Below are positions 7,163 through 27,928 of a stretch of DNA of 64,000 nt, piece by piece. The stretch covers positions 62,001 through 126,000 of the forward strand of contig NZ_AAYB01000002.1 in the NCBI RefSeq assembly GCF_000169435.1, read 5' to 3'. Numbering within the stretch: position 1 is the stretch's first letter; each line of letters opens with the position of its first letter. A program made the translations under genes and the position numbers. The DNA comes from Roseobacter sp. CCS2. GTDB lineage: Bacteria; Pseudomonadota; Alphaproteobacteria; Rhodobacterales; Rhodobacteraceae. The notes beneath the pieces were generated by a model, which was given only the letters and a program-made list of their open reading frames with translations, had not been told where the DNA came from and ran no database searches.

Positions 7163-7762
7163 ATGAAGATTATCTTGGTTGGGGCAGCGGGCGATATTGG
7201 ACAGGCCGCATATCAGGAACTTGCTGCGCGGCACGATGTTGTCACCGTTGGGCGCACCACCGGGGAACACCATGTTGATGTCACAGATATTGACGCCGTC
7301 AAAGCATTGTACAGGGCGGTGCGCCCCTTTGATGCGGTGGTGTCATGCGCCGGTGACGCGTCGTTCGCACCGCTTGATGCGTTTGATCAGGATACGTTCA
7401 TGGTCGGTCTTCGTCAAAAGGTCATGGGGCAGGTCAATCTAGTTCTTGCCGGGCTGGATATCATCGCGGATGGCGGATCATTCACATTGACCAGCGGTGT
7501 GCTGGACCGTGATCCAATCCGCATGGGCACAAACGCCGCGACTGCGAACGGGGCGCTGGCCGGTTTTGTCAAAAGTGCCGCAATTGAGATGCCGCGCGCA
7601 CTGCGGGTCAATGTCGTTAGTCCGGGTATGCTTGATGTTTCTGCGCCGCGTTACAGGGAATGGTTTCGCGGGCACAAGCCGGTGTTATCCCATGACGTAG
7701 GACTGGCTTATGCGAAATGCGTCGAAGGGGCGCTGACCGGTCAGGTGGTTGTGGTGGAGTGA
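7163..7762 (+). CDS. Short-chain dehydrogenase/reductase, atypical active site
   Basis: A 199-residue Rossmann-fold protein with the nucleotide-binding GAAGDIGQAA at its N-terminus and the late SDR motif RVNVVSPGML. The canonical YxxxK catalytic pair is missing. In its place the helix reads NAATANGALAGFVKSAA, so the expected Tyr and Lys are replaced. Short SDRs of this kind, around 200 residues with NGAL before the helix, form a known subgroup of uncertain substrate. It may bind NAD(P)(H) without classical oxidoreductase chemistry. Nothing in the neighbouring genes suggests a pathway. Confidence 0.82.
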   Translation: MKIILVGAAGDIGQAAYQELAARHDVVTVGRTTGEHHVDVTDIDAVKALYRAVRPFDAVVSCAGDASFAPLDAFDQDTFMVGLRQKVMGQVNLVLAGLDIIADGGSFTLTSGVLDRDPIRMGTNAATANGALAGFVKSAAIEMPRALRVNVVSPGMLDVSAPRYREWFRGHKPVLSHDVGLAYAKCVEGALTGQVVVVE

Positions 7763-7785
7763 TGGACCGTCAAGGCGTGATGCGA

Positions 7786-8262
7786 TCAGTTATCAAAGCT
7801 CTGATCAAGATAGGTGGCCAGATTTTGCGACGGCGTCTTATTATCGCTGAGCATGTGCTTTTTCCATACGTTAACTTCAAAGTTCACGATGTCCATTTCC
7901 CAGACGCAGCCAAGCACCTCTTTCGCCCCGTCGTGAAAAAGGGTTGGTTCGTCCCAGCTGGCGCGCACCTGCCCTGCATGGGCCAGCACGCTGCCCCACT
8001 GCCAATAAAACACCGGTGAGACGACAGCGACCTGCGCGAAATGGATGATCTGAAACCCGATACCGTGGTTTCCGTCAGCATCCACTAAAGACCCGGCCTT
8101 GGGCAGCAGGCGCATAGCTTTGGCTGTCGCAGCGGTGGTGACATCATCGTTGTATGTATGCCCTTGCGACAGGATAGCGTATCGTTTGAGCTGCCAACCG
8201 CTTTGGTTGAACTGTGGCAGATGCAATGTCGGTCTGGACCGAAACGGTGCAAGATGATCCAT
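7786..8262 (-). CDS. Hypothetical protein, 158 residues
   Basis: A soluble-looking protein without signal peptide or membrane helices, with a strong purine tract (AAAGGGGGG on the minus strand) immediately before the ATG. It is rich in Trp and His (WQLKRYAIL, FYWQWGSVLAHAGQVRASW, VWKKHML) and has alternating strand-like segments in its C-terminal half, suggesting a small beta-rich ligand-binding fold. I do not recognise the family. It converges on the SDR gene and is divergent from the giant surface gene, with about 250 bp between the two starts. Confidence 0.6.
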   Translation of the reverse strand: MDHLAPFRSRPTLHLPQFNQSGWQLKRYAILSQGHTYNDDVTTAATAKAMRLLPKAGSLVDADGNHGIGFQIIHFAQVAVVSPVFYWQWGSVLAHAGQVRASWDEPTLFHDGAKEVLGCVWEMDIVNFEVNVWKKHMLSDNKTPSQNLATYLDQSFDN

Positions 8263-8511
8263 GCCCCCCTTTGTTGTCGCAAGCCTATTGACAGCAGCAC
8301 TGCGGGCCAGCGGGTCATACGATAGTCTATGAGGTGTTGCCCCAGTTCATGCAACGTATGCTGCTAAAAGCGAGCAGTTCATACGCCATTCACGTAAGGA
8401 TTGTTGCGCAATTGATGCGGATGCGGGAATTTTCCCTTTAGAAACAATCGTCACGTTGTTTGCTGCCGTTTGTACGATATTCTGCCTGCATCTTATGGGG
8501 GACGCGTAGTG

Positions 8512-11500
8512 ATGAAATTGGCAGATCGGTTCAAAAAGACACTTTCTTTGTTGGGATTGATCGGCCTTGGACTATCGGGTGCAACCACCGCTCAGGCGCA
8601 AGCTGGTCCTGCGTTTGCCTGTAGCGGCAATATTTATCAGGTGCAGTCCGGCCAGCTACGCATTTTTGATCCAATCACATCCACTTATTTGAACGTAGGG
8701 CCAGCCAACAACAGCTATAATGCGACAGGTTATAACACTTTAGACAACTACGCCTACGCTTCACAGGGCCGCAATATTATCCGTATTGCATCTGACGGCA
8801 CGATTGAAACTGTCTTCAATATCGGTTTTGGCAGCTATTCAGGTGATATCGATTTTTCCAACAACTACTATCTGCGCCGCAACGACAGACGTTATGCGCG
8901 GATCGATTTGGATACCGGTGCCGTTACAAATATCAATTTTTCGGGGCCCGGTGGCGGCCCTGCGGACGTTGCCTATGATCGGTTTGGCGGTGATGAATAT
9001 CTGATCGGTTTTTCCGGTGGCGGCACGCTTTATCGCTATAACATTACGGACCGAACGAAAGAAAATATCTCACTCCCCGGTCTGCCAGGCGGGGGGTTCG
9101 GTGCCACATGGACAGATAGCAACGGACGCCTTTTTACCTTTAACAACAACAACGGTATTTTGTACGAAGTTTCCGACTACTATACCAATTCACCGGTTTT
9201 TACGCAGGTTGGCGTCGGTGTCCCAAGCGGGAACAACGATGGCTTTTCTTGCAGCCTGGCCCCTTTTCCAAATTTGGCACCCGTCGCGTTTGATGATGAT
9301 TTCGTCACGCCGCTGAATACGGATGTCACCGGTAATGTCTTGGTTGAGAATGGCAATGGCGTCGACAATGATCCCGATGGTGGTGCGCTAACCGTCAATC
9401 CAACGCCATTGGCGGGCCCGTCAAACGGCACGGTGACCTTATCGGCAACGGGCGCGTTTACCTACACTCCGAATACAAATTTCATCGGGACGGATGTCTT
9501 TGAGTACGAGATTACGGACCCTGCCGGGCTGATAGCAACCGCATTTGTCACCATCGTCGTCGAAGGCGACATCAGCTTTGATGTGACCAAGACCCAAGTG
9601 ACCGGCCCGAACCCTGCGGCGGCGGCGGGCGATGTGCTGCAATACGAGATCGCGGTTTTGAACACGGGCGATATCCCTCTGACCGGGATTTCACCATCTG
9701 ATGTCTTGCCTGATGGGTCATCCGGCACGCTGAGCGGGCCGACCGAAACAGGGGCTGCGACGAACGTGCCCGGCCAGTTGGATCTGAATGAAACATGGAC
9801 CTATACGATTGCGTATACTGTAACCGCCGATGATATAGATGCCGGTGTCCCGCTTACAAACACGGCCTCTGTCACTGCAACCGAAACGGGTGCGCTGCCG
9901 CGCACCGATACCGCTGTTACGCCCATTGACCAACAGCCGGCTTTCACTTTGTCCAAGACTGTAGATACGGCAAACCTGAACGCGCCCGGGTTGCTGACTT
10001 ACGAAATTGAGATCGACAACACCGGCAACACCTCACTGACCGGGGTCACACTGGCCGATGTGCTACTGCAAGGCCCGGATGCCCGCACGCTGACCAGTGG
10101 TCCCACGCTTTCAGGTGATACTGATGGCGACGGAGAGATTGATACCGCCGAGGTTTGGACCTACGCGGCCACCTATCAGGTGACACAAGCCGACATTGAT
10201 GATGGTCGCAATCTGGTGAACACCGCAACGGTCGATACCGCTGAAACAGCCGCGCAATCGGCTGATGCGACGACGACTTTTGCGCAGGTATCAAGCTTTG
10301 ATCTGACCAAAACCTCGGACACTGCGACGCTCACCGCACCGGGTTTGATCACCTATACGATCACGCTTGATAATACCGGCAATACGTCGCTGACTGGTGT
10401 CACGCCGACCGACACGCTGACACAAGATGGCACACCGTTGACGTTGACCACCGGGTTGGGCGCGCCTGTGGGCGATACGGACGGTGATGGTGCTTTGGGC
10501 GTGGATGAAACATGGGTTTACACGGTCACCTTTGCCGCCGGGCAGGACCAGATTGATGATGGGGCTGACATCATCAACAGCGTGACAGTTGCCAGCAACG
10601 AACTGCCAAATCAATCCGCGCAGACGCCTACCACCATCACGCAATCGGCTGGCTTTGATTTTGCCAAATCCGTTGACATTGCAACGCTGACCGCGCCCGG
10701 TACGTTGAATTACGAAGTTGTCGTGACCAACACAGGCAATGTGTCCCTTACTGGGGTCACCTTTACTGATACCGTGGCCCAAGGTGCCGCCGCACCGGCG
10801 CTAACAACCGGGCCTGACTTGACGGGCGATATCGACGGCGATGACATTCTTGATGTGGGTGAAACCTGGGTCTATCTGGCGACGCTGGATGTGACCCAAG
10901 CCCAGATTGATGACGGCAATGATATCGTCAATTCTGCCAGCTTTATAGCCGCAGAAGCGCCTTTGCAGACGAACACGGCAACCACAGAGATCACGCAGAC
11001 ATCGTTGATCAGCTTGTCCAAGGCCGTGGCAAGCGGCCAGCCCAGCAGCTTTGCAGCCGTGGGCGACACAATCGACTTTACCTATACGATCACCAACAAC
11101 GGCAACACGACCCTTGTCGCCCCGATTAACGTGACCGATGACCAGATCGGCACTGATCTGGCTTGTTTGACCAGCGACCTTCTGCCCGGCGCGACGGCAT
11201 CTTGCGATCTGGAATGGGTTGCAGAGCAAGCGGATCTGAACGCAGGCTCTGTCACAAATACCGCCTTTGCCGAAGATGATTTGGGTGAACGCAGCGCCGA
11301 TCAATTCGCCACTGTTACGGCGGTCCAAAACCCTGCATTGACCATTGTTAAGACGATTGTCGCCCCGATCCCGACGGTTTTCGAAGGTGGTCAACAGCTT
11401 AACTACCGTTACGAGGTCACAAATACCGGCAACGTCACACTGCCCAATGCTGTAATTGTCGCAGACAACCTTACGACCGTAACGTGCGATCCGGTTCCGG

Positions 11501-14500
11501 CCGGTGGCCTGTTGCCCCAAGGCACAAACCCTGTCGGGCCAACTAATACCGTTATTTGCACTGCAAATTATATCATCACGGCCGCCGAAGAACCGTTTGG
11601 CCGCACAACCAACGAAGCGACCGCAAGCACCACGTTCAATGGCGCTAATGTCACATCACCTGCTGATACGGCGACATTCCCCGTAGGCGCATCACCAATC
11701 CTTAATCTGGTGAAAGAGGCCGATCCCGCGACCGTGCCACCCACCGAGGTCGGCGATGAAATCACCTATGCCTATACAATCACCAACGTCGTGCCTGCCG
11801 CCCCGATCGTGGGCGCGGCCCTGTCCGAGCCGATCTTTATCAACGATGATAAATTCGCAGATCCGATCCTGTGTTATGATCCTGCCGTCGAAGGCGGGTC
11901 ATTGGGCGTTGGTGAAACGCATATTTGTTTTGCGACCTATGAAGTGACCCAAGACGATCTGGACGCAGGCCAGGTCCGCAACGAAGCGACAGCCAACACC
12001 ATCTTTGCACCCGGTTCGACAAACCCAGAGGAAGTCACATCAAACCCCGCCATAGAAATCGTGGCCGTTGATGCCGGGCCGTCCTTGCTGGTGGCCAAGA
12101 CCGTGACAGGTGGGCCAAACCCCGCAGCTGTCGGGCAGGACATTCTTTATCAGATTGTCGCGACGAATAACGGGAACCAAACGCTGAACACGGTCACCAT
12201 CAGCGATCCCCTTTTAGGCGCGCTCAGCTGCGATATTGCGGCCCCCGTGACCCTTGCACGAAGCGACGCGTTGACCTGCACCGGCACTTATACCGTGACG
12301 CAAGCGGATGTGGATAATCAAACCGTCGGTGATACCACCACCGCCGTGTTCACCAACACCGCCACCGCACAAGCCAATGACCCGTCAGGCGCTGCGATCA
12401 CCCCCGCAAACGGCAGCGTTGATCACCCCATCGCCCCTGCGGCACCTGCCGTATCCATCATCAAAGAACTGTTCCCAAATCCCGCAGCGGACCCCGCCTT
12501 TGACGCGGTCAATGATGTGGTGCGTTTCCGCATGCGGGTGTCGAACACCGGCAACATGACCCTTAGCAGTATTGCCGTTACAGACAGCCTTGTTGCAGGC
12601 ACCTGCAACATCGGCCCCCTTGCGCCGGGCACCACTGACACGACATGCCTGTTTGATTATGCCGCAACGCAAGATGATCTGGATGCAGGGCAGATCGTCA
12701 ACACAGGCACCGCCACTGCGGTGGCCGCTGACCCTACCGCAACTGTGCCGCCCGCCACAAACACGCTGACATCCCCCGGACCGGACTTTGCCGGCGCATT
12801 GACCGTTATCAAAGACGGCGTGCTTGATCTTGGCCCGGATGGCGTTGCCACAGTCGGCGATTTGATCACCTATACGATCACCACAACCAATACCGGCAAT
12901 GTCACGATCACGGACATTGCAGTCGCCGATCCCTCTGCCGACGCAGGCTCAATCACCTATACGACGGCTGACGATACCGATGGCGACAGTGATATTGATA
13001 GCCTCGCACCGATGACTTCGGCGACGGTGACAGCCACCCATGCGCTGACGCAGCCTGATATTGATGCGGGCTTCTTTGACAACTCTGCCACTGCGACTGG
13101 CGCAGACCCATCAAATACGCCTGTCAGCGATACCTCTGACAGTGGCAATCCGGCTGATGGTGCAGGGCCAAACGACCCGACACGCACCGATATCCCGCGC
13201 GCAACCGGGCTGACGGTTGAAAAGACATCGTCCGCTACGACTGACGTGACCGAAGGCACGACGATCACCTACAGCTATCTTGTGACCAACACAGGCAATG
13301 TGACCCTGACGGATATCGCCCTGTCAGACATGCACACCAGCGCATCCGGCACAGCCAGCCTGCCGATTTTGGGTGGCGGTCGCATCGTCTCGCTTGATCC
13401 TGATGCCGCAGTCACGCTGACCGCGACATATGTTGTTACGCAAGATGACATTGATGCGGGCGCGCCACTGACAAACATCGTCAGCGCAACCGCCGATGCC
13501 CCCGCCGGCACAACACCACCCACGGCCACCGACAATGCCAGCGTTGATCTGGCCAGCAGCGATCCGTCGCTAGAGGTCATCAAGACCATCCAATCCCAAA
13601 CCGGGAGCGCCGCGGGCGATACCGTTGTCTTTGCCGTCGCGATTGAAAACACAGGCAATGTCACGTTGGACAACGTCAGCTTGGCCGACACGCTTTCGCG
13701 CTTGGATGGCAGCACCATCACACCTGCACCAACAGCAGTGTTCGACGGCGCAGATACCGGCACAGCGGGCGCGATCGACGTGGATGAAACGTGGAACTAC
13801 ACGGTGACCTATGTCCTGACCCAAGACGACATTGACGCAGGCGGGATCAGCAATACGGTCACCGCAACGGCAGACGCCCCAAATGGGGCAACCGTCAGCG
13901 ATGTGTCCGATAACGGTTCAGGCGACGGTGATGACCCGACCCGACTGCCGATTGCCGCGACGCCACTGCTGGAAGTGGTCAAAACCATCACCTCAACATC
14001 CGCAGAGGTTGACGACACGATCACATTTGAAATTGCCGTGCGAAACGCAGGCAACGTCAGTCTGTTCAACGTGGCCATCATCTCTGACACGCTGACGCGC
14101 GCTGATGGCACAGTGCTGGCCATCACCGGCCCGACCTTCGCGGGGGCTGATGCCGCCTCATCTGAGGGCGCATTGCAAGTCGGCGAAACCGCGACCTATA
14201 CCGCAAGCTATGTCCTGACCCAGGACGATCTGGACGCAGGCGGCATTCAAAACACCGCAACAGCAGCAGGCACGCAACCATCTGGCGGCACAATCACCGA
14301 TGTCAGTGATGATGACGGCCCCGGCAGCGACCCCACCGTCCTGACTATTGACGCAGCCCCCCTGATCACCTTTGAAAAGCGGCTTGCCGCGGCCAGCGGT
14401 CCAAGCTTTGCCGCTATGGGCGATGTGCTGCGTTATGAATTTGAGATCACCAATGCAGGCAACGTCACACTGACCGCGCCCTTCAGCGTGGCAGACCCGC

Positions 14501-17500
14501 TGATCACAGATGCAGGCGGTGTGATTACCTGTTCGATCGATCCAATCGCACCGGGCGAATCCGCACTTTGCACCGGTGACTATAGCATTGATCAGGACGA
14601 TCTTGATCTGGGCGAAGTCTTGAACACCGCGACAGCCACCGCCGGGGCCGCGCCACCTGTTGATGATGACGAAACCGTCACGGCCACCCAGCGTCCCGCC
14701 CTTGGCTTGGTCAAAGAAGCGGATGAGCTTGATGCCGTCGATTTCATCGTCGGTGCCGAAGAAACCTACACCTTTACCGTGACCAACACCGGCAATGTGA
14801 CGATCACCGATCCGATTGTGATCGACGATCCGCTGATCCCGCAGGCCGATTTTGACTATCCCGACTTTCCCGCAGGTGGGCTGGCCCCCGGCGATGTCTA
14901 TGTTGTGACAGCTACTTATGTGGTTACAGTCGATGATGTGGCTTTGGCGAATGTCACCAACAATGCCACCGCTGTTGCTGGCCCCGTCCGGTCGCCTGTG
15001 TCGTCCGAGACGATCCCCAATGATGGCACACCCGCGCTGACAGTCGACAAAGAGTTGATCAGATCGCTCAACCCCGACAACAGCGACAGTGGCGGTCTGA
15101 CCTTTGACGAGGTCGGTGATCAGTTGGAATATCAGTTCACCGTCACCAACTCTGGCGAGGTGTCTTTCGCCAATACCGTCACAATCACCGACAACCTAAT
15201 CGCAGGCGATATCGACTGCTTTATCCCGGATGTTGCAGGTGGCAATCCTGATCTGACACCGGGTGAGACAGCAACCTGTACCGGCATCTATGTCATCGAC
15301 CAGAATGATCTGGACGCAGGCGAGGTCATCAACGAAGCCTTTGCAAGCACCACCTTCGGGTCCATCCCGACCACGGTTTTGTCGCCTGCTGACACAGAAA
15401 CAGCACGCGCCGCGACCGACCCTGCCTTGCTGATTGCCAAAACGGTTGATCCTGCCGCCTATACGGCCGTTAATCAGGTGGTGACCTACACGATCACGGT
15501 CACAAACACTGGCAACCAGACGCTGACAGATGTCAGCGTATCCGACCCGCTGATCCCCGCTTTGACGTGCGACGCCGCCAGCCTGCCGGTCGATGATGTG
15601 CTGTCCTGCGACGTGCCTTACACCATTGTGCGAGAGGATATCGACCGCGGGTTCCTAACCAACGCGGCCTCGGTCACAGGGGTTGATCCACAAGGCACTG
15701 CAGTGCCGACAACGCCGGAAACGACCGCCAGTGTCACGATTAATGGCCCGTCCGAGGTGCCAACCCTTGCCATGCGCAAACTGGCCACACCCGCACCATT
15801 TGGCCCGGTTGGATCCAGCATCACCTATGTGTTTGAGGTGACCAACACCAGCATCTACACGCTTGACAATATCACGGTCACCGACCCGATCCCGGGCGCT
15901 GTTGCACCCTTTACCTGCGACGTTGGCACATTGGCACCTTTGGCCGTCAGCACCACCTGTTCGCTGACCCTGCCTGTCACGCAAACGGATATTGATACCG
16001 GGGAAATCGTGAACACCGCCAGCGTGCGCGGCACTGATCCATTTGGCAATGAAGCCACCGCAACGGACACGGCCACAACAGCGGGGCCAGCCGAGGCACC
16101 TGCGATCATGGCGACCAAGCTTGCCAATGTCACCGCCACGACCTTGGGCGCGGTCGTGACCTACGATTTGCGGGTCGAAAACCCCGGCAACGTGTCGCTT
16201 GGCTTGCTGACCACGCTTGATCAGATGAGCCGGCCTGACGGGACCACAACCACCCTTGATGCGCCTTTTGATTTCCAGTCGGGCGACATCAATGCAGATA
16301 GCCTGCTGAACCCCGGCGAAGTTTGGCTATACACCGCAGAACACACAATCACGCAGCCTGATATCAACGCAGGCGGGTTCAGTAACTCTGTTGTCGTTGC
16401 AGGCCAGTCCCCTAGTGGGACACGGGTCGACGATACGTCGGATGATGGCGATGACGCTGATGGTAACATCACCGATGATCCGACCTTTGTTGAGATCGAA
16501 ACAGTGCCCGTGCTGCAAACCACCAAAGTCATTGTGGCCCGCGCGCCGACAATTGACCCTAATACCGGCGAAGACGTACCCCCGCCGCCTTATACCGTTG
16601 GTGACGAAGTTGTCTTTGAAATCCAAGGCGCCAATACCGGCAACGTCGAAATTACGGGCGCTGATGTCACCGATACGCTAACCCGGCTGGACGGCACCGA
16701 CATCAGCGGGCTTGCGACAGGCCCGACCCGGACGGCGAACCCCGATGATAATGGCGATCCAACGCTTGCGCCGGGCGAAATCTGGACTTGGGAAGTACGC
16801 TATACCCTGCAACAGGCTGATGCGGACGCTGGCGGTATTTCCAACACGGCTACGGTTGCAGGGCTTGCCCCTGATGGATCGGATGTTTCTGACGTGTCCG
16901 ACGACGGCGACCCGACTGATGGCAACATTGCCGACGATCCGACCGAACTGATCATCCCGCCCGAACCCGGCTTGGATGTGACCAAGACCGTGGTCGCGAT
17001 CGGTGCTGCACCCGGTGACGACGTCGTCTTTGAAATCACGGCAGAGAACACAGGCAATGTCACGCTTTCCGGGCTTCGCATCGTTGACACCATGACCAAT
17101 CTGGATGGCGACACGCTGGCCCCGGTGACGATCACTGTCGCAGGGCTGGTGGCCGGTGATCTGGCGGTTGACAGCACGGCTACCTACACCGTGACCTATG
17201 CGCTGACGCAGGACGATATCGATTCCGGCGGCATTTCCAACACGGCAACCGTTGAAGGCACCACGCCCGGGGGTGCCGCGCTTTCCGATGTGTCCGATGA
17301 TGGTGATGACGGCGACGGAAATACCTTTGACGATCCAACCATTGCCGCGATCCCGCAAAACAACGCCATGTCACTGAGCAAAACCGCAGGCATCCCAGAC
17401 CGCATTGCCCCGGACCTGTTCGAAGTCACATTTGAAATGACGGTCAGCAATGATGGCAACACGACACTGACCAATCTGGTGATCGAAGACGATCTGACAG

Positions 17501-18825
17501 CATTCGTGGCCCCTGCCACATTGGATGACGTCAGCACGCCGATTGTCACCGGTTTTGATACGGGTGCTGCGAACACTGATTATGACGGCGTGGCCGATGT
17601 GCAGCTGGTCACTGATGGGGCTGAACTGGCGCCGGGCAGCGTGGGCACGATCCTGTTGACCGTGCGCTATGATACCACTGCCGGTTCGCCTGTGGGTGAG
17701 AACACGTTGGCGGTGCGGTCTGATCAATTGCCGGCTGTGCAATCTGCGTCTACCGCGGTTCTGACTGGTGAAGACGCTGATATCTTTGGCACCAAAACTG
17801 CCGCCCCGGCCAACCCGCGTTTGGGGGATACAGTGATCTATACGCTGACCTTCCAAAACCGGCTGGCGACAACCGAAAGTAACCTGAGCATCATTGATCG
17901 CCTGCCGCGGGGCATGGCCTATGTGCCTGATAGTGCGACATTTGACGGGTCGGATACGCCTGCGCCTGCGGTCAGCGGGCGGGAATTGCGCTGGGATGAT
18001 GTGTCTTTGACACCCAACCAAACCGTTACCATCACACTGGCCGCGCGTCTGGTCAGCGGTGGTCCGGGGTCTTACGTGAACCGCGCCTATGTCGAAGACA
18101 GCGCCGGCACACGCGTGTCCAACGTGGCAACCGCCGAGGTGATCCGCAGGCCAGAGCCTGTCTTTGATTGCGCTGATATCATCGGCAAGGTCTTTGATGA
18201 TCATAACCTGAATGGCTATCAGGATCGTCCCGCTGATATTGTCACAGGCGGCGTCAGCGACCAAAGCTATGAAGGCAGCAAGCTGGGCCTTGCCCCTGAA
18301 TTGGCCGCGCGTGATGATGAACCGGGTCTGCCGAATGTGCGCCTGTCGACAGTTACCGGCACGCTGATCACGACGGATGAATATGGACGTTTCAGCGTGC
18401 CTTGCGCCGAACTGCCCGCCGGGATCGGGTCAAACTTCCAGCTGAAACTGGACGAACGGACCTTGCCCACTGGCTATCACGTCACGACAGAAAACCCCCG
18501 TTCCATCCGGGTCACACCGGGGCGGATGGCTGAACTGAACTTTGGTGCGGCCCTGTCGGATCTGGTTGAGCTTGACTTGACCAGCCGCGCCTTTGTCAGC
18601 GGCAGTGCGACGCCGAACACCGCTTTGCAAACGGGTGTGGATCAACTGGTGGCACAGTTAGCCGCAGCGCCGACGGTTGTCCGGCTTGTCTATTATCAAA
18701 ATGGCGAAAACCGCGATCTGATCAATGCCCGGCTGGATCAGGTAACCGGGTTGATTACGCAACAATGGCAGCGCCGCACCGGCGCACCGCTGACCATTGA
18801 ACGCACAATCAGCAGGGTGCAGTGA
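8512..18825 (+). CDS. Giant exported surface protein with 23 DUF11-like repeats
   Basis: 3437 residues from ATG 8512 (GGGGGA lies about 10 bases upstream). Domain order as seen: signal peptide ending near TAQAQA at about residue 30; a 220-residue N-terminal region of strand repeats (NIYQVQSGQLRIFD...); a cadherin-like domain (NLAPVAFDDDF to TAFVTIVV); 23 repeats of 70-110 residues built on xxxKT...Y.I.V.NTGNVTLT...; an SdrD-B-like domain (IIGKVFDDHNLNGYQD at 18180, ending near 18550); and a unique C-terminal 90 residues (RLVYYQNGENRDLINARLDQ). The protein is very acidic and Thr/Asp-rich. It has no LPXTG, autotransporter barrel or RTX signal. The downstream barrel gene begins one base after its stop, so that product may anchor or export it. 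Ligand and function are unknown; adhesion or surface coat are guesses. Confidence 0.85.
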   Translation: MKLADRFKKTLSLLGLIGLGLSGATTAQAQAGPAFACSGNIYQVQSGQLRIFDPITSTYLNVGPANNSYNATGYNTLDNYAYASQGRNIIRIASDGTIETVFNIGFGSYSGDIDFSNNYYLRRNDRRYARIDLDTGAVTNINFSGPGGGPADVAYDRFGGDEYLIGFSGGGTLYRYNITDRTKENISLPGLPGGGFGATWTDSNGRLFTFNNNNGILYEVSDYYTNSPVFTQVGVGVPSGNNDGFSCSLAPFPNLAPVAFDDDFVTPLNTDVTGNVLVENGNGVDNDPDGGALTVNPTPLAGPSNGTVTLSATGAFTYTPNTNFIGTDVFEYEITDPAGLIATAFVTIVVEGDISFDVTKTQVTGPNPAAAAGDVLQYEIAVLNTGDIPLTGISPSDVLPDGSSGTLSGPTETGAATNVPGQLDLNETWTYTIAYTVTADDIDAGVPLTNTASVTATETGALPRTDTAVTPIDQQPAFTLSKTVDTANLNAPGLLTYEIEIDNTGNTSLTGVTLADVLLQGPDARTLTSGPTLSGDTDGDGEIDTAEVWTYAATYQVTQADIDDGRNLVNTATVDTAETAAQSADATTTFAQVSSFDLTKTSDTATLTAPGLITYTITLDNTGNTSLTGVTPTDTLTQDGTPLTLTTGLGAPVGDTDGDGALGVDETWVYTVTFAAGQDQIDDGADIINSVTVASNELPNQSAQTPTTITQSAGFDFAKSVDIATLTAPGTLNYEVVVTNTGNVSLTGVTFTDTVAQGAAAPALTTGPDLTGDIDGDDILDVGETWVYLATLDVTQAQIDDGNDIVNSASFIAAEAPLQTNTATTEITQTSLISLSKAVASGQPSSFAAVGDTIDFTYTITNNGNTTLVAPINVTDDQIGTDLACLTSDLLPGATASCDLEWVAEQADLNAGSVTNTAFAEDDLGERSADQFATVTAVQNPALTIVKTIVAPIPTVFEGGQQLNYRYEVTNTGNVTLPNAVIVADNLTTVTCDPVPAGGLLPQGTNPVGPTNTVICTANYIITAAEEPFGRTTNEATASTTFNGANVTSPADTATFPVGASPILNLVKEADPATVPPTEVGDEITYAYTITNVVPAAPIVGAALSEPIFINDDKFADPILCYDPAVEGGSLGVGETHICFATYEVTQDDLDAGQVRNEATANTIFAPGSTNPEEVTSNPAIEIVAVDAGPSLLVAKTVTGGPNPAAVGQDILYQIVATNNGNQTLNTVTISDPLLGALSCDIAAPVTLARSDALTCTGTYTVTQADVDNQTVGDTTTAVFTNTATAQANDPSGAAITPANGSVDHPIAPAAPAVSIIKELFPNPAADPAFDAVNDVVRFRMRVSNTGNMTLSSIAVTDSLVAGTCNIGPLAPGTTDTTCLFDYAATQDDLDAGQIVNTGTATAVAADPTATVPPATNTLTSPGPDFAGALTVIKDGVLDLGPDGVATVGDLITYTITTTNTGNVTITDIAVADPSADAGSITYTTADDTDGDSDIDSLAPMTSATVTATHALTQPDIDAGFFDNSATATGADPSNTPVSDTSDSGNPADGAGPNDPTRTDIPRATGLTVEKTSSATTDVTEGTTITYSYLVTNTGNVTLTDIALSDMHTSASGTASLPILGGGRIVSLDPDAAVTLTATYVVTQDDIDAGAPLTNIVSATADAPAGTTPPTATDNASVDLASSDPSLEVIKTIQSQTGSAAGDTVVFAVAIENTGNVTLDNVSLADTLSRLDGSTITPAPTAVFDGADTGTAGAIDVDETWNYTVTYVLTQDDIDAGGISNTVTATADAPNGATVSDVSDNGSGDGDDPTRLPIAATPLLEVVKTITSTSAEVDDTITFEIAVRNAGNVSLFNVAIISDTLTRADGTVLAITGPTFAGADAASSEGALQVGETATYTASYVLTQDDLDAGGIQNTATAAGTQPSGGTITDVSDDDGPGSDPTVLTIDAAPLITFEKRLAAASGPSFAAMGDVLRYEFEITNAGNVTLTAPFSVADPLITDAGGVITCSIDPIAPGESALCTGDYSIDQDDLDLGEVLNTATATAGAAPPVDDDETVTATQRPALGLVKEADELDAVDFIVGAEETYTFTVTNTGNVTITDPIVIDDPLIPQADFDYPDFPAGGLAPGDVYVVTATYVVTVDDVALANVTNNATAVAGPVRSPVSSETIPNDGTPALTVDKELIRSLNPDNSDSGGLTFDEVGDQLEYQFTVTNSGEVSFANTVTITDNLIAGDIDCFIPDVAGGNPDLTPGETATCTGIYVIDQNDLDAGEVINEAFASTTFGSIPTTVLSPADTETARAATDPALLIAKTVDPAAYTAVNQVVTYTITVTNTGNQTLTDVSVSDPLIPALTCDAASLPVDDVLSCDVPYTIVREDIDRGFLTNAASVTGVDPQGTAVPTTPETTASVTINGPSEVPTLAMRKLATPAPFGPVGSSITYVFEVTNTSIYTLDNITVTDPIPGAVAPFTCDVGTLAPLAVSTTCSLTLPVTQTDIDTGEIVNTASVRGTDPFGNEATATDTATTAGPAEAPAIMATKLANVTATTLGAVVTYDLRVENPGNVSLGLLTTLDQMSRPDGTTTTLDAPFDFQSGDINADSLLNPGEVWLYTAEHTITQPDINAGGFSNSVVVAGQSPSGTRVDDTSDDGDDADGNITDDPTFVEIETVPVLQTTKVIVARAPTIDPNTGEDVPPPPYTVGDEVVFEIQGANTGNVEITGADVTDTLTRLDGTDISGLATGPTRTANPDDNGDPTLAPGEIWTWEVRYTLQQADADAGGISNTATVAGLAPDGSDVSDVSDDGDPTDGNIADDPTELIIPPEPGLDVTKTVVAIGAAPGDDVVFEITAENTGNVTLSGLRIVDTMTNLDGDTLAPVTITVAGLVAGDLAVDSTATYTVTYALTQDDIDSGGISNTATVEGTTPGGAALSDVSDDGDDGDGNTFDDPTIAAIPQNNAMSLSKTAGIPDRIAPDLFEVTFEMTVSNDGNTTLTNLVIEDDLTAFVAPATLDDVSTPIVTGFDTGAANTDYDGVADVQLVTDGAELAPGSVGTILLTVRYDTTAGSPVGENTLAVRSDQLPAVQSASTAVLTGEDADIFGTKTAAPANPRLGDTVIYTLTFQNRLATTESNLSIIDRLPRGMAYVPDSATFDGSDTPAPAVSGRELRWDDVSLTPNQTVTITLAARLVSGGPGSYVNRAYVEDSAGTRVSNVATAEVIRRPEPVFDCADIIGKVFDDHNLNGYQDRPADIVTGGVSDQSYEGSKLGLAPELAARDDEPGLPNVRLSTVTGTLITTDEYGRFSVPCAELPAGIGSNFQLKLDERTLPTGYHVTTENPRSIRVTPGRMAELNFGAALSDLVELDLTSRAFVSGSATPNTALQTGVDQLVAQLAAAPTVVRLVYYQNGENRDLINARLDQVTGLITQQWQRRTGAPLTIERTISRVQ

Positions 18826-18826
18826 T

Positions 18827-21800
18827 ATGAGAGTAGCAATGATCAATCGTTTACCCCTATGCGCCCGCCTGATGGGTGCAACGGCCCTGACCTTGGTTGC
18901 GGCCACAGCGCACGGCCAATCAAACGAAGGGTTTTCACTGCGGCTGAATGGGGCTGATATCGCCTCTGACACGGCCCTGTCGACCATCGCGCGACGCGCA
19001 GATGTGGCCCTGGCTGACGCAGATATTCAGGTTGTCGTCGATGGGTTGGGCGTCGTGCCCCGCCTTGATCTTGAGGTGATTGGCGATGCTGCCCCCTACA
19101 CCACAGGCGATGTAGTGACCCTGCAATCTGCCCTGAACTATCCGGCCTATATCAACCGCGCTGAAATGCGTGTCATTGATCTTGCCGCTGTGGGTGGGCC
19201 GCGCACTGTGGCTGTAGCACCGATCACACCAAACGGTCAGGTCAGTCTGACCCTTCCTGCGGGTGAAGACTTTGCCATCGTGCACCGCGTTTATGATGCG
19301 CAGGGGCGGTTTGATGAAACCTTTCCGCTGTCGCTAACAACGCCCGACGACCGCACCCTTTCCGCAGATGCCGAAGATGGCAGCGATGCGACCGCTGAAC
19401 GGAACATTCCTGTACATGGCGGCGCGGTGACCGTGCGCGGTCAAGGTGTTGTTCCCGGTGGCCGGGTGACGGCCTTTGGCGGCCCTGTCACGCCCGACAG
19501 GGATGGTGGTTTTATTCTGCAACGCATCCTGCCTGCGGGCGCACATGATATCGACATTGCCGTCAATGGCAGCGGGCAGCGTGTGAACCTGACCCGCCGC
19601 GTCGTCGTTCCAGCGTCAGAGTGGTTCTATACTGGTACGGCAGATGTGACCTTTGGCGTGCGCACCGGCGATGATGTAGATGGCACCGAGACGTATCAGA
19701 CAGGCCGTGTTGCGGGCTATGTGGATGGACGCACGCAAACCGGGGTCGCGGTCACGGCATCCATCGACACAGGCGAGGGCCCGCTTGAAGATATCTTTCG
19801 CGATCTGGACGAAAAAGACCCCCGTTCGGTCCTGTTGCGTGTCGATCCTGATGATCTTTATCCGACATATGGCGACGATTCGACGTCTGTGGACAACACC
19901 CCCACCTCTGGCAAAATCTATCTGCGGGTCGCCCGTGATGATGATTTCGTCCTTTGGGGTGATTTCACCAGCACGCTGACCGGCAATGCCTTGGTGCGCA
20001 ACGAACGCACGCTTTATGGCCTGCAAGGGCATGTCGCCACCAACACACGCACGACCGCAGGAATACCCCGCGCGGCGGCTGATTTATATGCAGCACAGCC
20101 CGATAAACTGCCCCAGCGTGATGTGTTCCGCGGCACCGATGGGTCGGTTTATTTCCTTGAAAAACAGGATATCGGCGGCGGGTCAGAAACGATCAGCATT
20201 CAGGTGCGCGATCCCGGCACTGACCGGGTGATCGAAACGGTCACTCTGGCGGCAGGTCGCGATTATGACATCAACTATATCCAGGGGATCGTGACCCTGC
20301 GTCAGCCGCTGCAAAACAGTATCTCGCCGGGTGTCGTGATTGCGGCACCGGGCGAGGCATCCAACGTCAATCTGGTTGTGCAGTACGAATATACGCCGAC
20401 TGCGACTGATCTTGACGGGTTTTCCTACGGTGGACGGGTCGAAGGCTGGGCCACAGATCAGCTGCGCGTTGGTGTCAGCGGCATTGTTGAACAAACAGGT
20501 ATCGCCGATCAGACCCTTGCGGGTGTTGATGTGCTTTATCAGCTTGGTGAAACCTCTTTCATTCGCGGCGATGTTGCCCAATCCGAAGGACTTGGTTTTG
20601 GCACCACCTTTTCGGCCAATGGTGGATTGATCTTTGATGAAACCGCCGCGACAGATGGCAACGGCACGGCGACCAAGATCGAAGCGCAGATAGCATTCGC
20701 CGATATCGGCCTGCAAACAGAAGGGGCCTTCAGCGCCTATGCAGAACAGCGCAGCGAGGGGTTTTCAAACCTCGACAACACCGTGTCTGCGACAACGGGT
20801 GATGAAGACCTATGGGGCTTTGCCATCGCAGGCAAACCCAACGATGTGCTCAGTTATCGCGCCTACCTTGATAGTTATGAAAACGCCGCTGGCGACGTGG
20901 ATCGCACCGCCGGAGCAGAACTGGGATATCAGATTTCCGATCCTCTTTTGCTGGAATTCGGCCTTGAAAGCACGGACCGCGATGATGCCACCGAAACAGG
21001 GCAACGCACTGATGCGGCGGTGCGGCTGACCTATGCGTTCAGTGATGCATTCGAAGCCTCGGTTTTTGGGCAGGAAACGCTGGATGTTGATGGGCTGGAC
21101 CGAAATGACCGCTACGGTATTGGCGCAGACTATAGGTTTACCGAAAACTGGCGCATCAGTGGTGAAGTGTCGGACGGCAACCTTGGCACTGGTGGATCGA
21201 TCCGCCTGAGCAACGAAGATGATGTGGGCAACCAAACCTATTTCGGATACACGTTGGAACCCGGACGCACGTTAGCAGGCGTCACCCTGAACGGCACTGA
21301 CCGCGGCCGGTTTGTTGCTGGCGGCACTCGGAAAATCGGCGCTGATGTCACCGCGTTTGGCGAAAACACCTATGATGTTTTTGGTGCCTATAACAGCCTC
21401 GCCAGTTCATACGGTCTGACCTATCAGCCGACAGACACCCTGCAATACAGCGCGGCCATGACGGTTGCGACGGTGCAGGACGACGACGAAAACGACTTTG
21501 AGCGGCAGGCGGTGTCCTTTGGCCTGTCCTACGACACAGAGCAGTTCACAAGCGCGGGCCGCGTGGAATACCGGACCGAAGAGGGGCTTGTGTCGGGCAA
21601 CGAGCTGAACACTGATACACTGCTGATCAGTCTTGATGCGCGCTACAAAATTGATGAAACGCAGCGGATCGTAGGGTCACTTGACCTTGCGCGGACGCAA
21701 ACGGACGCCAGCGCGATCCTTGATGGCGAATATACCGATGCCGTGCTGGGTTATGCCTTTCGGCCAATCGACAATGAACAACTGAATATCCTGGCCCGCT

Positions 21801-22240
21801 ATCGTTATCTTGAAGATCTTTATGGGCAGCGGGTGGATGATGCAGACGAAGACGGGCCGCGCCAGCGCAGTCAGGTTGTCAGCGTGGATGCGATCTATGA
21901 TCTGAACGAACGCTGGTCCATTGGCGGCAAGGTTGGCTACCGGGCATCTGAAACCGCCGCGACAGAGGCGTCAGCATTCACGCAAAACGATGCGTGGCTG
22001 GCGGTTGGTGGTGTGACATATCACATGCTGGATCGCTGGGACATCGCCGCAGAAGTGCGCAATCTGACTGCCGTGCAGGCAGAAACGTCTGATACCGGCG
22101 TGCTGGCCACGGTTTATCGCCACGTCGGCGATCACCTGAAAATCGGGGGCGGATACAACTTTGGACAGTTTTCGGATGACCTGACGGATCTGGTGCAGGA
22201 TGATCAGGGTCTGTTCATCAATCTGGTGGCCAAATACTGA
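18827..22240 (+). CDS. Outer-membrane beta-barrel protein paired with the giant repeat protein
   Basis: 1137 residues if started at ATG 18827, with GGGTG upstream; ATG 18839 is an alternative. A signal peptide ends near ATAHGQS. Residues about 30-270 hold beta-sandwich segments, including a repeat-like VTVRGQGVVPGGRVTAFG. They are followed by a conserved-looking stretch, YPTYGDDSTS...PTSGKIYLRVARDDD...LWGDF, and then by about 700 residues of alternating amphipathic strands ending FINLVAKY. The terminal aromatic residue is typical of BAM-inserted barrels. No TonB box or plug motif was recognised. It is placed one base after the giant gene's stop and is followed by a strong terminator, so the two form a bicistron. 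Transport, anchoring or structural roles are all possible. Confidence 0.8.
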   Translation: MRVAMINRLPLCARLMGATALTLVAATAHGQSNEGFSLRLNGADIASDTALSTIARRADVALADADIQVVVDGLGVVPRLDLEVIGDAAPYTTGDVVTLQSALNYPAYINRAEMRVIDLAAVGGPRTVAVAPITPNGQVSLTLPAGEDFAIVHRVYDAQGRFDETFPLSLTTPDDRTLSADAEDGSDATAERNIPVHGGAVTVRGQGVVPGGRVTAFGGPVTPDRDGGFILQRILPAGAHDIDIAVNGSGQRVNLTRRVVVPASEWFYTGTADVTFGVRTGDDVDGTETYQTGRVAGYVDGRTQTGVAVTASIDTGEGPLEDIFRDLDEKDPRSVLLRVDPDDLYPTYGDDSTSVDNTPTSGKIYLRVARDDDFVLWGDFTSTLTGNALVRNERTLYGLQGHVATNTRTTAGIPRAAADLYAAQPDKLPQRDVFRGTDGSVYFLEKQDIGGGSETISIQVRDPGTDRVIETVTLAAGRDYDINYIQGIVTLRQPLQNSISPGVVIAAPGEASNVNLVVQYEYTPTATDLDGFSYGGRVEGWATDQLRVGVSGIVEQTGIADQTLAGVDVLYQLGETSFIRGDVAQSEGLGFGTTFSANGGLIFDETAATDGNGTATKIEAQIAFADIGLQTEGAFSAYAEQRSEGFSNLDNTVSATTGDEDLWGFAIAGKPNDVLSYRAYLDSYENAAGDVDRTAGAELGYQISDPLLLEFGLESTDRDDATETGQRTDAAVRLTYAFSDAFEASVFGQETLDVDGLDRNDRYGIGADYRFTENWRISGEVSDGNLGTGGSIRLSNEDDVGNQTYFGYTLEPGRTLAGVTLNGTDRGRFVAGGTRKIGADVTAFGENTYDVFGAYNSLASSYGLTYQPTDTLQYSAAMTVATVQDDDENDFERQAVSFGLSYDTEQFTSAGRVEYRTEEGLVSGNELNTDTLLISLDARYKIDETQRIVGSLDLARTQTDASAILDGEYTDAVLGYAFRPIDNEQLNILARYRYLEDLYGQRVDDADEDGPRQRSQVVSVDAIYDLNERWSIGGKVGYRASETAATEASAFTQNDAWLAVGGVTYHMLDRWDIAAEVRNLTAVQAETSDTGVLATVYRHVGDHLKIGGGYNFGQFSDDLTDLVQDDQGLFINLVAKY

Positions 22241-22269
22241 ACCCTGACTTGCGCTGAACTGACACCGTG

Positions 22270-22306
22270 AAAAGGCCGCGCGTGAACTGCGCGGCCTTTT
22301 ACTTTT
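22270..22306 (+). terminator. Intrinsic terminator after the surface-protein bicistron
   Basis: A perfect 12-bp stem, AAAAGGCCGCGC (22270-22281) with GCGCGGCCTTTT (22289-22300), closes a 7-base loop and is followed by ACTTTT. It begins 30 bases after the barrel gene's stop. The A-tract/T-tract symmetry lets it act on both strands. Confidence 0.85.
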
Positions 22307-22430
22307 GCGGGTGATCTCGGGAATAACAGATCGTCCCGCTGTTTGGTCGCGCTGGTGATGAGGGAGTTGGCGGCCAACGCGACCGGTACTGCCCGCCGAT
22401 GCGGTATGACTATGCTGCGACTGAAATGAA

Positions 22431-22471
22431 CGTCACGCGATCACCTTTCGGCTGTCCCTGACCGCGTGACG
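22431..22471 (-). terminator. Possible terminator of the autotransporter gene
   Basis: CGTCACGCG (22431-22439) and CGCGTGACG (22463-22471) are perfect 9-bp arms with a 23-base loop, placed 22 bases beyond the autotransporter stop. Only a weak T-rich tail (TTCATTT on the minus strand) follows, so termination is uncertain. Confidence 0.35.
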
Positions 22472-22492
22472 CCTCTCTCCCGTTCGCGTTGC

Positions 22493-25400
22493 CTAGAATG
22501 TGTATCGGATGCTGAGCCCTGCGCTGATTGCTTCGGCGTCGTCAGAACCGAACATATATTCCACATCACCTGTCAGGTTCAGCCCGCCCGATTGTGCAAA
22601 GGTTGCCCCAAGCCCGACAAAACCGCCAAAGAAGGTGTCGCTGTCGGTTGCATCAAAGGAAAACGGATCGCTGGTCACCGGACCGCCTGCACCTGTCTGG
22701 GTGATCTGTGCATCAAACGTATCCTCCGAAGACAGGCGACCTGCAACACCGGCCCGCAATTCGCCGTCAAATGCGCCGCTGCTATAGCCCAGCGCCAGTT
22801 GGTGGCGCCCGTTCAGTGTTTGTGCGGTGCGGCTATCGACGCTTAGGTTGGACCCTGTTGTGCCGGTTTCCTCGAACGCATCAAACTGTACCAGCGTATA
22901 GTTCAGGGCGGCCGACGGGCGCAGTTCAAACGCGCCCAGTTGGCGGAAGAACCCAGCCGCACTTACGCCTGCACTGATAAAGGTGCTGTCGAACGACGCC
23001 TCTGCCGTTTCCAGACCGTCGGTGATTGTGGTGTCCAACACCACCCGGCTGCTGTCATGGCTTTGCGTGCCTGCCAGAACGTTGAAGGTATAGTACCCGT
23101 TTTCACGATGTTCAGTGAAATAGGCACCCCCAAAGATGCTTTCGCTGTCGACACTGGATGCGCTGACGTCCGTGGCGATCTGCCCATTGGCAAAGCCACC
23201 CACAAAGCCAATGTCACGGCCATAAAACGTGCCTTCATACCCGGCCACAACACCTGCGTGATCGGCGGTATAGGCCAGTGCCGTACCGCTTTCGCCAAAA
23301 GTTTGTTGGCCACCAAGGACCGATGCCCAGACACCTGATTGCCCAGCGTTATTGCTGATCGCCCCGCGGGCTGTATCAGCCAATGTGCCGGTCGCTTCGT
23401 TCAGGGCCGATGCGGCTGTCATTTCGATGCGCAGGATATCGGTCTGGTTGTCGCCAAAGGTGACGAATTGCGCGTCATAGGCGGCATCGACGTCAAATTC
23501 TTCGGTTTCAAAGGTGGAGATACGCCAAGAGATATCGTCAGGCAGCACGTCACGCTCAAGCGCAAAGCTGTCGCCTGCGCCTTCACCCAGATCAAAGATA
23601 CCGATGAATTGCGCACCTGCGGCCATCGTCACATCCTGATCGCCATCCCGGCCACGGACAACAGCTGCAAGGCCATCACCCGCTGTCAGCATCATACCGC
23701 TGTTCACAAGTGTCGTGCCATCTTCGTCAAGTGCTGCCGCATCCGACCCGATACCAGAGACGACCACATTGCCGGTGTTCGACAACAGGCCACCACCAGC
23801 AAGCGCGATGCCATCAGCGTCTTCACCAGTCGTCATTACGGCGGCGGTGTTGGTCACATTGCTGCCAACGCCTGATACGTTGATACCGATAGAGTTTTCG
23901 CCCGCGGTCGCGATCATTCCGGTGTTGTCGATGGTGCTGTCAGCACCTGATGAAATGATCCCAGCTGAAGCAAAGCCTTCTGTTGCAATCATGCCAATAT
24001 TGTCGACATCCGCATTGGCGCCAATGGCTTGCACGCCAAAACCCCCTTGTTCGGCGAGCGCAATCGCGCCTTCATTGATCACGGCCGAAGCATTGCCGAC
24101 GCTCAGGATACCAATGGCGTCACGTCCAGTCGTATCGATTGAATTGTTGTTGACGATTTGCGTCGCATCGCCAGAGCTGACGATTGCAATGCTTGCGTCC
24201 CCAGAAACCGACACCGTTTGGTTGTTCATAATCATTGCATTTGTGCCAGAAGAAACCAGACCTACGGACTCCAGACCTGCCACCGTCACGGCGCCGTTAT
24301 TTATGATCTGGGCGTTTTCACCACCGGCGTCGATCCCTTGGTTGTCGCCGCCATTTACGTTGATTGCGGCGTTGTTGATGATCTCGTTGTCGTTCCCCTC
24401 AGCCGATATACCGCTGGAAAAAGAACCATTGGTCGTGATTTGGGCATCATTCATGATCATGCCGTCGTTGCCTGTCAGCGAGATCCCGTTCGATCCATCG
24501 CCCTGCGTTGTGATGCCAAAGCCTTCGGGAAGCTCAATATCCTCCTCGCCCAGATCAAACCCATTCATAATCAGGGCATTGTCGCCGTTTACAGCAACGC
24601 CGTCACTATCTGTCCCTGATGTAGCGATTATCCCGACATTGAATGCGAGCGCGCTTGCGCCGTCCACGACCATCCCATCAGCGTCTGTGCCGGATGTTGT
24701 GATGGCTGCTCCATTCACGGCTCCAGCAATAATTTCAGATCCGAAACCATCGCTGACGTCGACAACACCGTCAAAGCTTGTGGTGACAGAGATACCCTTT
24801 GCGCCATCGCCAGTGGTGGTGATATCGCCAAAGTTAAAGGCGAGACCGACAGCCGCATCAATGACGATACCAGATGCATCAGTGCCCTGAGTTTCGATGT
24901 TTGCATCATCATCATTTGTTACGAAAATGGTGCCGCCTTCAGCCAAGATACCCTCGGCACCATCCCCCAGTGTACTGATGCTGCCGTCGTTTTCGACGAA
25001 GCCGCCGTTTGAAATCACGCCATCAAGGTCAGAAAGGTCTAATCCCGCATCGGCGCCGTCGCCTGCGTTCATGACAATGCCTTCTGCGTTGTCCTGAGTT
25101 GTGGAAATCGTACCATCGTTATCAATGGCAATGCCGACGCCGGAAACACTGATGCCGTCGGCATCACTGCCGCTTGTCGTGATGGACCCATCGTTGTTTA
25201 CAAAGCCGTTTTCACCGCTGACAACAATACCGGCAGAGCCAACACCGTTGGTGGTAATCCGGCCATCATTTTCGACGTCCGCGTTGTCGCCCGTTACCGA
25301 AATACCGGCAGAGTTGTCTCCCAGCGTATCAATCGTACCTGTCGCTGCGTTATCGACATTCGCACGGTCACCTTCGACGTCGATGCCATTGCTGTTGTCG

Positions 25401-27466: not shown

Positions 27467-27928
27467 CAAAATTCCCTTTCCCTCGGCCCGCTCAATCACG
27501 GGGCTACACGACACCTACGCGCCGAGGTCGGGGTCTATTCGCGACAATGCGAAAAAAATTTTACCGATTGGAAAAATCACGCACCGCACGGTGCCTTCAC
27601 CCTTTGGCAAAGCGTGCCATTTAGGGTTGGCCGCGGATATCCAGCCCGTGTGGGGCGCATCATGCCGCACACACCAAGATCAGGTTTCGCTTTAGGTCCA
27701 CAGACCGTCCGCATGGACGCAGGGCCAGCGATTGCTCCGATAGGTGCGAAAACGCCCGTCGGTTCCAGAAACCGTTTGTGACGGGCCCGTCCCCTCTTGA
27801 TCTTATGGTAAATGCATCAAAAGCACACAGCGCCGGGCCGCCTTATCAAGGCCGCCGGGCCATTTGTGTTGCTTGCAACCAACCGTCCATTTCGCTAACC
27901 CCGCGGGGATGATTGCAAGAGGTGCGGC
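27467..27928. other. Divergent intergenic region between autotransporter and pheS
   Basis: 462 bp with no convincing gene; the open frames there are not supported by start signals or composition. It carries both promoters. An A-rich stretch (27548-27575) lies near the autotransporter side. A GC-rich imperfect hairpin centred on GCCTTATCAAGGC (27840-27852) lies about 75 bases before pheS, where an attenuator would be placed, but it lacks a T-run and I found no Phe-rich leader peptide. Confidence 0.45.

Follow-up and report, generated by a model that had tools for sequence, protein, structure and literature searches.

A giant immunoglobulin-repeat protein and its neighbouring predicted outer-membrane barrel: a probable two-protein surface system in Roseobacter sp. 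CCS2

Introduction

How can a very long, repeat-built protein of a Gram-negative bacterium be brought to the cell surface and held there? The question is raised by positions 8512-22240 of a 64,000-nucleotide stretch of Roseobacter sp. CCS2 DNA (contig NZ_AAYB01000002.1; the whole stretch is called the window). Two genes on the same strand, with one base separating stop from start, encode an exported protein of 3437 residues (the giant) and an exported protein of 1137 residues (the barrel protein). Stalks of DUF11 and DUF7507 domains locked by isopeptide bonds are already known in Gram-negative surface proteins. In the open-access PubMed Central (PMC) literature, no paper was found on how such stalks cross the outer membrane outside the type 9 system, nor on the giant/barrel pair; the search was limited and the pair is possibly published. 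As an export candidate for such stalks, the pair is specific, widespread and open to test, and there is good support for reading it as a dedicated surface system of two proteins. New here are the lysines at isopeptide positions, the predicted barrel of ~40 strands with usher layout, the C-terminal module of the giant, and the co-variation of the last part of this module (the tail) with the N-terminal region of the barrel protein (barN).

Results

Among 149 genomes of the same family, the barrel profile (A1) was found in 20 and the module profile (A5, the giant's last ~220 residues) in 18, all within the 20. The co-occurrence anticipated by a first-pass annotation of the locus is thus found, as all 18 genomes with a strong match to the C-terminal module also hold the barrel (Fisher p=2.7e-21, with the genomes treated as independent, which they are not). 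The cut-off of E<1e-50 was picked after viewing the tables, and weaker matches were left out by it (barrel: G041, G061, G067; module: G067, G070). The two barrel genomes lacking the module are G021, whose contig begins within the barrel gene, and G115, with a C-terminal fragment. At E<=0.001 the barrel profile matched in 12 of 337 genomes of the class and 52 of 349 of the phylum. Many of the phylum-level matches are limited to the plug region and lie in long single frames (often 1200-2400 residues), and the module profile weakly matches many of the same frames. One such protein scanned by Pfam (L071) had SdrD_B above the cut-off and DUF11 just under it. In many genomes only some of the initial candidates received a profile score (no more than 2 or 4 with the barrel profile), and further copies are possible. 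Relatives lie on named contigs of, among others, Loktanella, Octadecabacter, Nereida and Litoreibacter, and on those of single metagenome-assembled genomes of Myxococcales, Bacteriovoracaceae and Neomarinimicrobiota. As a separate class, L071, L072, L073 and L149 are single chains of ~1900-2000 residues that combine SdrD-like and DUF11-type parts with a plug/barrel region of distant relationship, and on plasmid p4 of Acinetobacter haemolyticus a gene of this class stands beside OmpA-family and DUF11 genes.

The neighbourhood was compared in 63 loci whose barrel match covers more than 600 model positions, after removal of the duplicates L042 and L128. The giant is directly upstream of the barrel gene in 54 of them, with gaps of -158 to 146 nt by longest frame and a 4-base overlap in 15. 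It is downstream in one (L145) and fused to the barrel in two (L112, L115), the order in natural fusions being stalk, module, barrel. In L070 a more distant partner stands behind a broken barrel gene. The remaining five (L051, L053, L131, L132, L136) have no partner; L051 begins at a contig edge. The genomes of L131, L132 and L136 (G265, G369, G457) each carry two module-bearing proteins on other contigs, with no barrel gene in the fetched stretches, though in these genomes just 2 of the 6 to 8 barrel candidates received a score and more barrels are possible. G369 also carries the fused L112, and G265 the barrel fragment L133. None of seven open reading frames (ORFs) flanking the pair in the window recurs in any locus (phmmer, 1e-10; flanks are short for many loci). 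Therefore, the pair is a conserved unit, and both parts can also live apart. The Pfam scores and the recurrence of the pair in other genomes show that the observation is not due to chance, and the pairing is real.

A barrel relative was found in 22 plasmid records, and the 10 that were opened hold nine pairs and one fusion. The pairs include those of Sulfitobacter guttiformis (whose giant spans 6195 codons according to its coordinates), Sinorhizobium meliloti T073, Loktanella salsilacus, Roseivivax sp., Eleftheria terrae, Croceibacterium atlanticum, Vibrio campbellii, the cyanobacterium Kovacikia minuta and Devosia neptuniae, where the giant's end is in a separate frame. By predicted mobility, two of the 22 records are conjugative and three mobilizable. 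The plasmid location and mobility of relatives suggest some horizontal spread. Barrel relatives are carried by the plasmids NZ_CP021807.1, NC_019362.1 and NZ_CP072995.1 of Rhodobacterales and rhizobia. Database names of the barrel gene are hypothetical protein, TonB-dependent receptor and OmpA family protein.

Both N-termini look by eye like Sec signal peptides. The stalk of the giant matches DUF7507 (E=0) and DUF11 (E=2.7e-80), and every one of the 14 DUF11 matches that the genome gave falls within the giant's frame. A profile built from its own repeats recovers 23 copies, the number first read. According to the accessible part of a 2025 survey (PMC12617251), DUF11 and DUF7507 are CLIPPER and CLIPPER_2, immunoglobulin (Ig)-like domains with Asp-assisted Lys-Asn isopeptide bonds. 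The giant has 31 lysines in all its 3437 residues. The stalk (residues 355-3240) has 25, and 23 of these occur one per repeat, 34-49 residues upstream of a conserved Asp. The Asp column holds Asp in 22 of 23 repeats and Glu in one; the Asn column holds Asn in 21 of the 21 repeats reaching it. The Lys-Asp-Asn triad could be placed in 21 of 23 repeats, the bonds being predicted from the residues; in one of the 21, the Asn lies outside the aligned part and was located by a motif search. The two failing repeats are the Glu repeat and one in which no Asn was found. Therefore, the stalk is probably cross-linked by isopeptide bonds. Each of nine repeats (11164-15960) also has a pair of cysteines; five of these repeats follow one another, as if two repeat types had expanded in blocks.

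For the barrel protein, the AlphaFold2 model predicts ~40 barrel strands, the first six of which are followed by an inserted plug-like domain, as in the usher layout. The first-pass annotation had placed the barrel in the second half of the protein, ending in Tyr. The Tyr and, as a prediction, the barrel hold, but not the extent, since the predicted strands begin at residue 265 and take up about three quarters of the protein. Several alignments with VIA porin cover residues 263-267 to 1137. A sequence search of the barrel protein and its family profile against solved structures gave nothing usable. NtrZ (28.0 bits against a cut-off of 27.7; residues 1000-1046, within predicted strands) was taken as generic barrel similarity, as were the sub-threshold Pfam matches DUF2490, OmpA_membrane and OMP_b-brl and the sub-threshold NCBIfam match OMP_myx_plus. 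The barrel proteins L113, L114, L116 and L117 carry one to three additional N-terminal OmpA stretches.

The giant had also been described as lacking any recognised anchor. Its profile matches agree with this. A conserved module nevertheless makes up its last ~220 residues, and the claim that there is no anchor is probably wrong. The module consists of an SdrD-like domain and the tail, whose predicted fold is possibly OmpA-like. Some relatives, but not the giant, score at or above the cut-off of Pfam SdrD_B. Five distant relatives end in a true OmpA domain; for the giant's own tail, OmpA identity was not established by Pfam, hhalign or Foldseek. In genome G054, a stand-alone protein of 245 residues (L144:6983-7720) consists of a signal peptide, an SdrD-like domain and the tail, without a stalk.

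The tail seems to vary together with barN. In the fused L112, ~48 residues separate the SdrD-like domain from the barrel, which sets in at about residue 268 (model-column count); tail and barN (residues 36-264) are both absent. L115, the other fusion, keeps barN and has a weak match to the tail (E 2e-4). Over 33 pairs, tail distances correlated with those of barN at r 0.81, against 0.56 with the SdrD-like domain that lies next to the tail in the giant. Given the barrel, the partial correlation was 0.36 for tail and barN (0/500 permutations) and -0.06 for the SdrD-like domain and barN. Variants agree for tail and barN (rank-based 0.32; thinned to 25 pairs 0.31; bootstrap 0.15-0.52). A strict joint loss was considered and rejected. 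Because L123, L125 and L126 have no tail and keep most of barN, the sequences point to graded co-variation only.

The features are collected in Table 1. The strong terminator described after the pair comes down to a single weak match, and an Rfam scan of 7700-22600 gave no match. In the adjoining region downstream, 22493-27514 on the minus strand encodes an exported-looking protein of 1673 residues with Gly/Asn/Asp-rich repeats; its C-terminus is beta-rich and autotransporter-like by eye, with no Pfam match at E<=0.1.

Table 1. Positions in the window of the two genes and their parts
Feature	Positions	Strand	Basis
Giant fibrillar protein gene, 3437 residues	8512-18825	+	Open frame (ATG at 8512, stop TGA at 18823-18825); Pfam DUF7507/DUF11
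Giant signal peptide, residues 1 to ~31	8512-8604	+	Read from sequence
DUF6923 domain near giant N-terminus, residues 56-247	8677-9252	+	Pfam PF21959, E=3e-24
Big_9 Ig-like domain of giant, residues 254-348	9271-9555	+	Pfam PF17963, E=1.9e-16
Giant stalk, 23 Ig-like repeats, one lysine each at isopeptide position	9583-18123	+	
SdrD-like domain of C-terminal module	18157-18549	+	Conserved in 41 aligned partners
Tail, last 91 residues of giant, beta-alpha-beta-alpha-beta, possibly OmpA-like; candidate docking/anchor domain	18550-18822	+	
Single-base spacer (T), giant stop to barrel-protein start	18826-18826	+	
Barrel protein gene, 1137 residues	18827-22240	+	Open frame (ATG 18827); AlphaFold2 model
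barN, residues 36-264, putatively periplasmic	18932-19618	+	AlphaFold2 model; absent in fused L112; co-varies with tail
Predicted barrel strands 1-6, residues 265-404	19619-20038	+	AlphaFold2 model
Plug-like inserted domain, residues ~405-505	20039-20341	+	Model; inside stretch common to distant relatives
Predicted barrel strands 7 to ~40, residues 512-1137, aromatic C-terminal residue	20360-22237	+	
Weak terminator-like stem	22279-22293	+	6-bp stem; 1 found vs 0.2 expected

Discussion

The proposal that the barrel protein serves the giant in a dedicated system is supported by the co-occurrence and the predicted barrel fold; its role would be export, anchoring or both. In the mechanism that we propose, both proteins would enter the periplasm by Sec, as their N-termini suggest. 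The barrel protein would form a very wide outer-membrane barrel, shut by the plug-like domain. The SdrD-like domain and tail of the giant may dock on barN and the plug would shift aside. The Ig-repeat stalk would exit with its DUF6923/Big_9 end outermost, and the C-terminal module would remain periplasmic and hold the fibre, possibly to peptidoglycan. On balance, we lean slightly towards such a system, in which a gated barrel passes and anchors a cross-linked fibre and the C-terminal module is the docking signal. Passage of the fibre through the predicted barrel is thus not a result but the explanation that fits best. Should the stalk be locked while periplasmic, the barrel would have to pass folded domains, which the predicted width would permit. 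The wider idea is tentative: a new outer-membrane export class with a gated barrel of ~40 strands, wider than SprA, that passes fibres already locked by isopeptide and disulfide bonds, the SdrD-like domain and tail being a portable C-terminal signal and one barrel serving several clients in trans.

Several observations weigh against passage and docking. The usher likeness is local and belongs to a predicted fold only, with Foldseek TM-scores <=0.20 by query length and a large root-mean-square deviation. Given barN, the partial correlation of the SdrD-like domain with the barrel is 0.31, also at 0/500 permutations, and such values are no proof of contact. Permutation leaves shared descent in place, and tail and barN are neighbours in the DNA. 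L123, L125 and L126 break a strict tail-barN rule. The OmpA-likeness of the tail is no higher than that of unrelated rows, and the tail's own profile matches 46 of 55 adjacent partners, not all. As to the pairing, no giant was found with the barrel fragment of G115, and the barrel gene of L053 has no partner within 9.7 kb upstream.

The strongest alternative, although unlikely, is that the barrel protein is an anchor or collar only, holding a giant that has first reached the outside of the outer membrane by another route. Such an arrangement resembles the myxobacterial pair TraA/TraB, an adhesin and a barrel with an OmpA domain, where the barrel is thought to anchor (PMC12045341, accessible part), and some relatives have OmpA domains, either C-terminal in the giant or N-terminal in the barrel protein. 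The genome's POTRA_2 protein and a sub-threshold SlipAM match might be other routes. On the other hand, the predicted barrel is far wider than an anchor requires and has an inserted plug-like domain, the stalk continues into the barrel in the fused L112, the giant's Pfam matches include no domain of two-partner secretion or of the type 11 secretion system (T11SS), and no flanking gene in the window travels with the pair. It is improbable that the pair is an envelope scaffold, with an SlpA-like barrel tied to peptidoglycan and the giant as a coat or periplasmic brace rather than an exported fibre. No SLH profile is among the Pfam matches, the model has no long helix suited to a coiled coil, a stalk of 23 Ig domains exceeds the periplasm by its commonly given dimensions, and DUF11/DUF7507 stalks are typical of fibrillar adhesins in the accessible part of PMC12617251. 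That the barrel is a TonB-dependent receptor and the giant a ligand-capture protein is very improbable: 7 of 22 plasmid matches bear that annotation and TonB-receptor barrels turn up often among the Foldseek matches listed, but the barrel protein has no such profile match at E<=1, none is among the 25 of 28 family-wide profiles listed, and the inserted domain comes after six strands, not N-terminally, in a barrel of ~40 strands, not 22.

Comparison with known systems

Membership of the usher, two-partner secretion, autotransporter, TonB receptor and T11SS families was considered and rejected, as their profiles do not match. Neither the TonB-receptor barrel profile nor that of its N-terminal plug matches the barrel protein. 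T11SS (Slam) is like the pair in that a dedicated outer-membrane protein is encoded beside the surface cargo (PMC12282271, accessible part); SlipAM has no match in the barrel protein, and the genome's one match lies elsewhere (19.6 bits, cut-off 22). TraA/TraB of Myxococcus share with the pair a surface adhesin and a barrel partner with an OmpA domain. Compared by the description in the accessible part of PMC12045341, TraB has its barrel N-terminal and its OmpA domain C-terminal, unlike the barrel protein. CLIPPER adhesins share with the giant the tandem DUF11/DUF7507 families and the Lys-Asp-Asn isopeptide residues. CLIPPER adhesins have an adhesive domain at the N-terminus; the giant has DUF6923 and Big_9 there, which may or may not bind. 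The CLIPPER domain that was crystallised belongs to an adhesin of Acinetobacter, described as having an OmpA-like anchor at its end, and no barrel partner is described for these adhesins in the accessible part of PMC12617251.

Two-partner secretion and type V systems resemble the pair in having cargo and barrel genes adjacent, or fused with the barrel C-terminal. Their barrels have 12-16 strands, against ~40 predicted here. By Pfam, neither protein has a POTRA_2, TPS-domain or PF03797-type profile. The lack of POTRA in the barrel protein, as first noted, is thus upheld, and with it the separation of the pair from classical two-partner secretion. The TPS (haemagglutination activity) domain is not among the giant's 11 Pfam families, and the autotransporter barrel profile has no match in the barrel protein. 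The genome's single POTRA_2 match is on another contig, far from the pair (G000:C7:60345-60569, in a 565-residue frame). YadA_anchor is sub-threshold in the barrel protein (13.9 bits, cut-off 22.7; residues 764-791, inside the barrel) and appears at E<=1 in 6 of 36 barrel-family members (best 4.6e-5).

The usher profile PF00577 has no match in the barrel protein or the whole genome at E<=0.001, while an E. coli control matches, and no periplasmic chaperone profile was found in the four flanking ORFs scanned; the rest of the genome was not searched. The ushers PapC and FimD have 24 strands, with an Ig-like plug between strands 6 and 7, in contrast to ~40 predicted strands here. Their cargo is pilin subunits rather than one giant chain, and their C-terminal domains follow the barrel, whereas here the barrel ends the protein. 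SprA, the type 9 translocon, is a 36-stranded barrel and was named the widest in a 2023 review. It has no sequence match to the barrel protein (its partners PorV, Plug and the motor were not searched for), and the hosts of the pair are mostly Pseudomonadota, unlike those of the type 9 system. The predicted model gives a usher-like, very wide barrel, and in mechanics its likeness would be closest to ushers and SprA, not to two-partner secretion.
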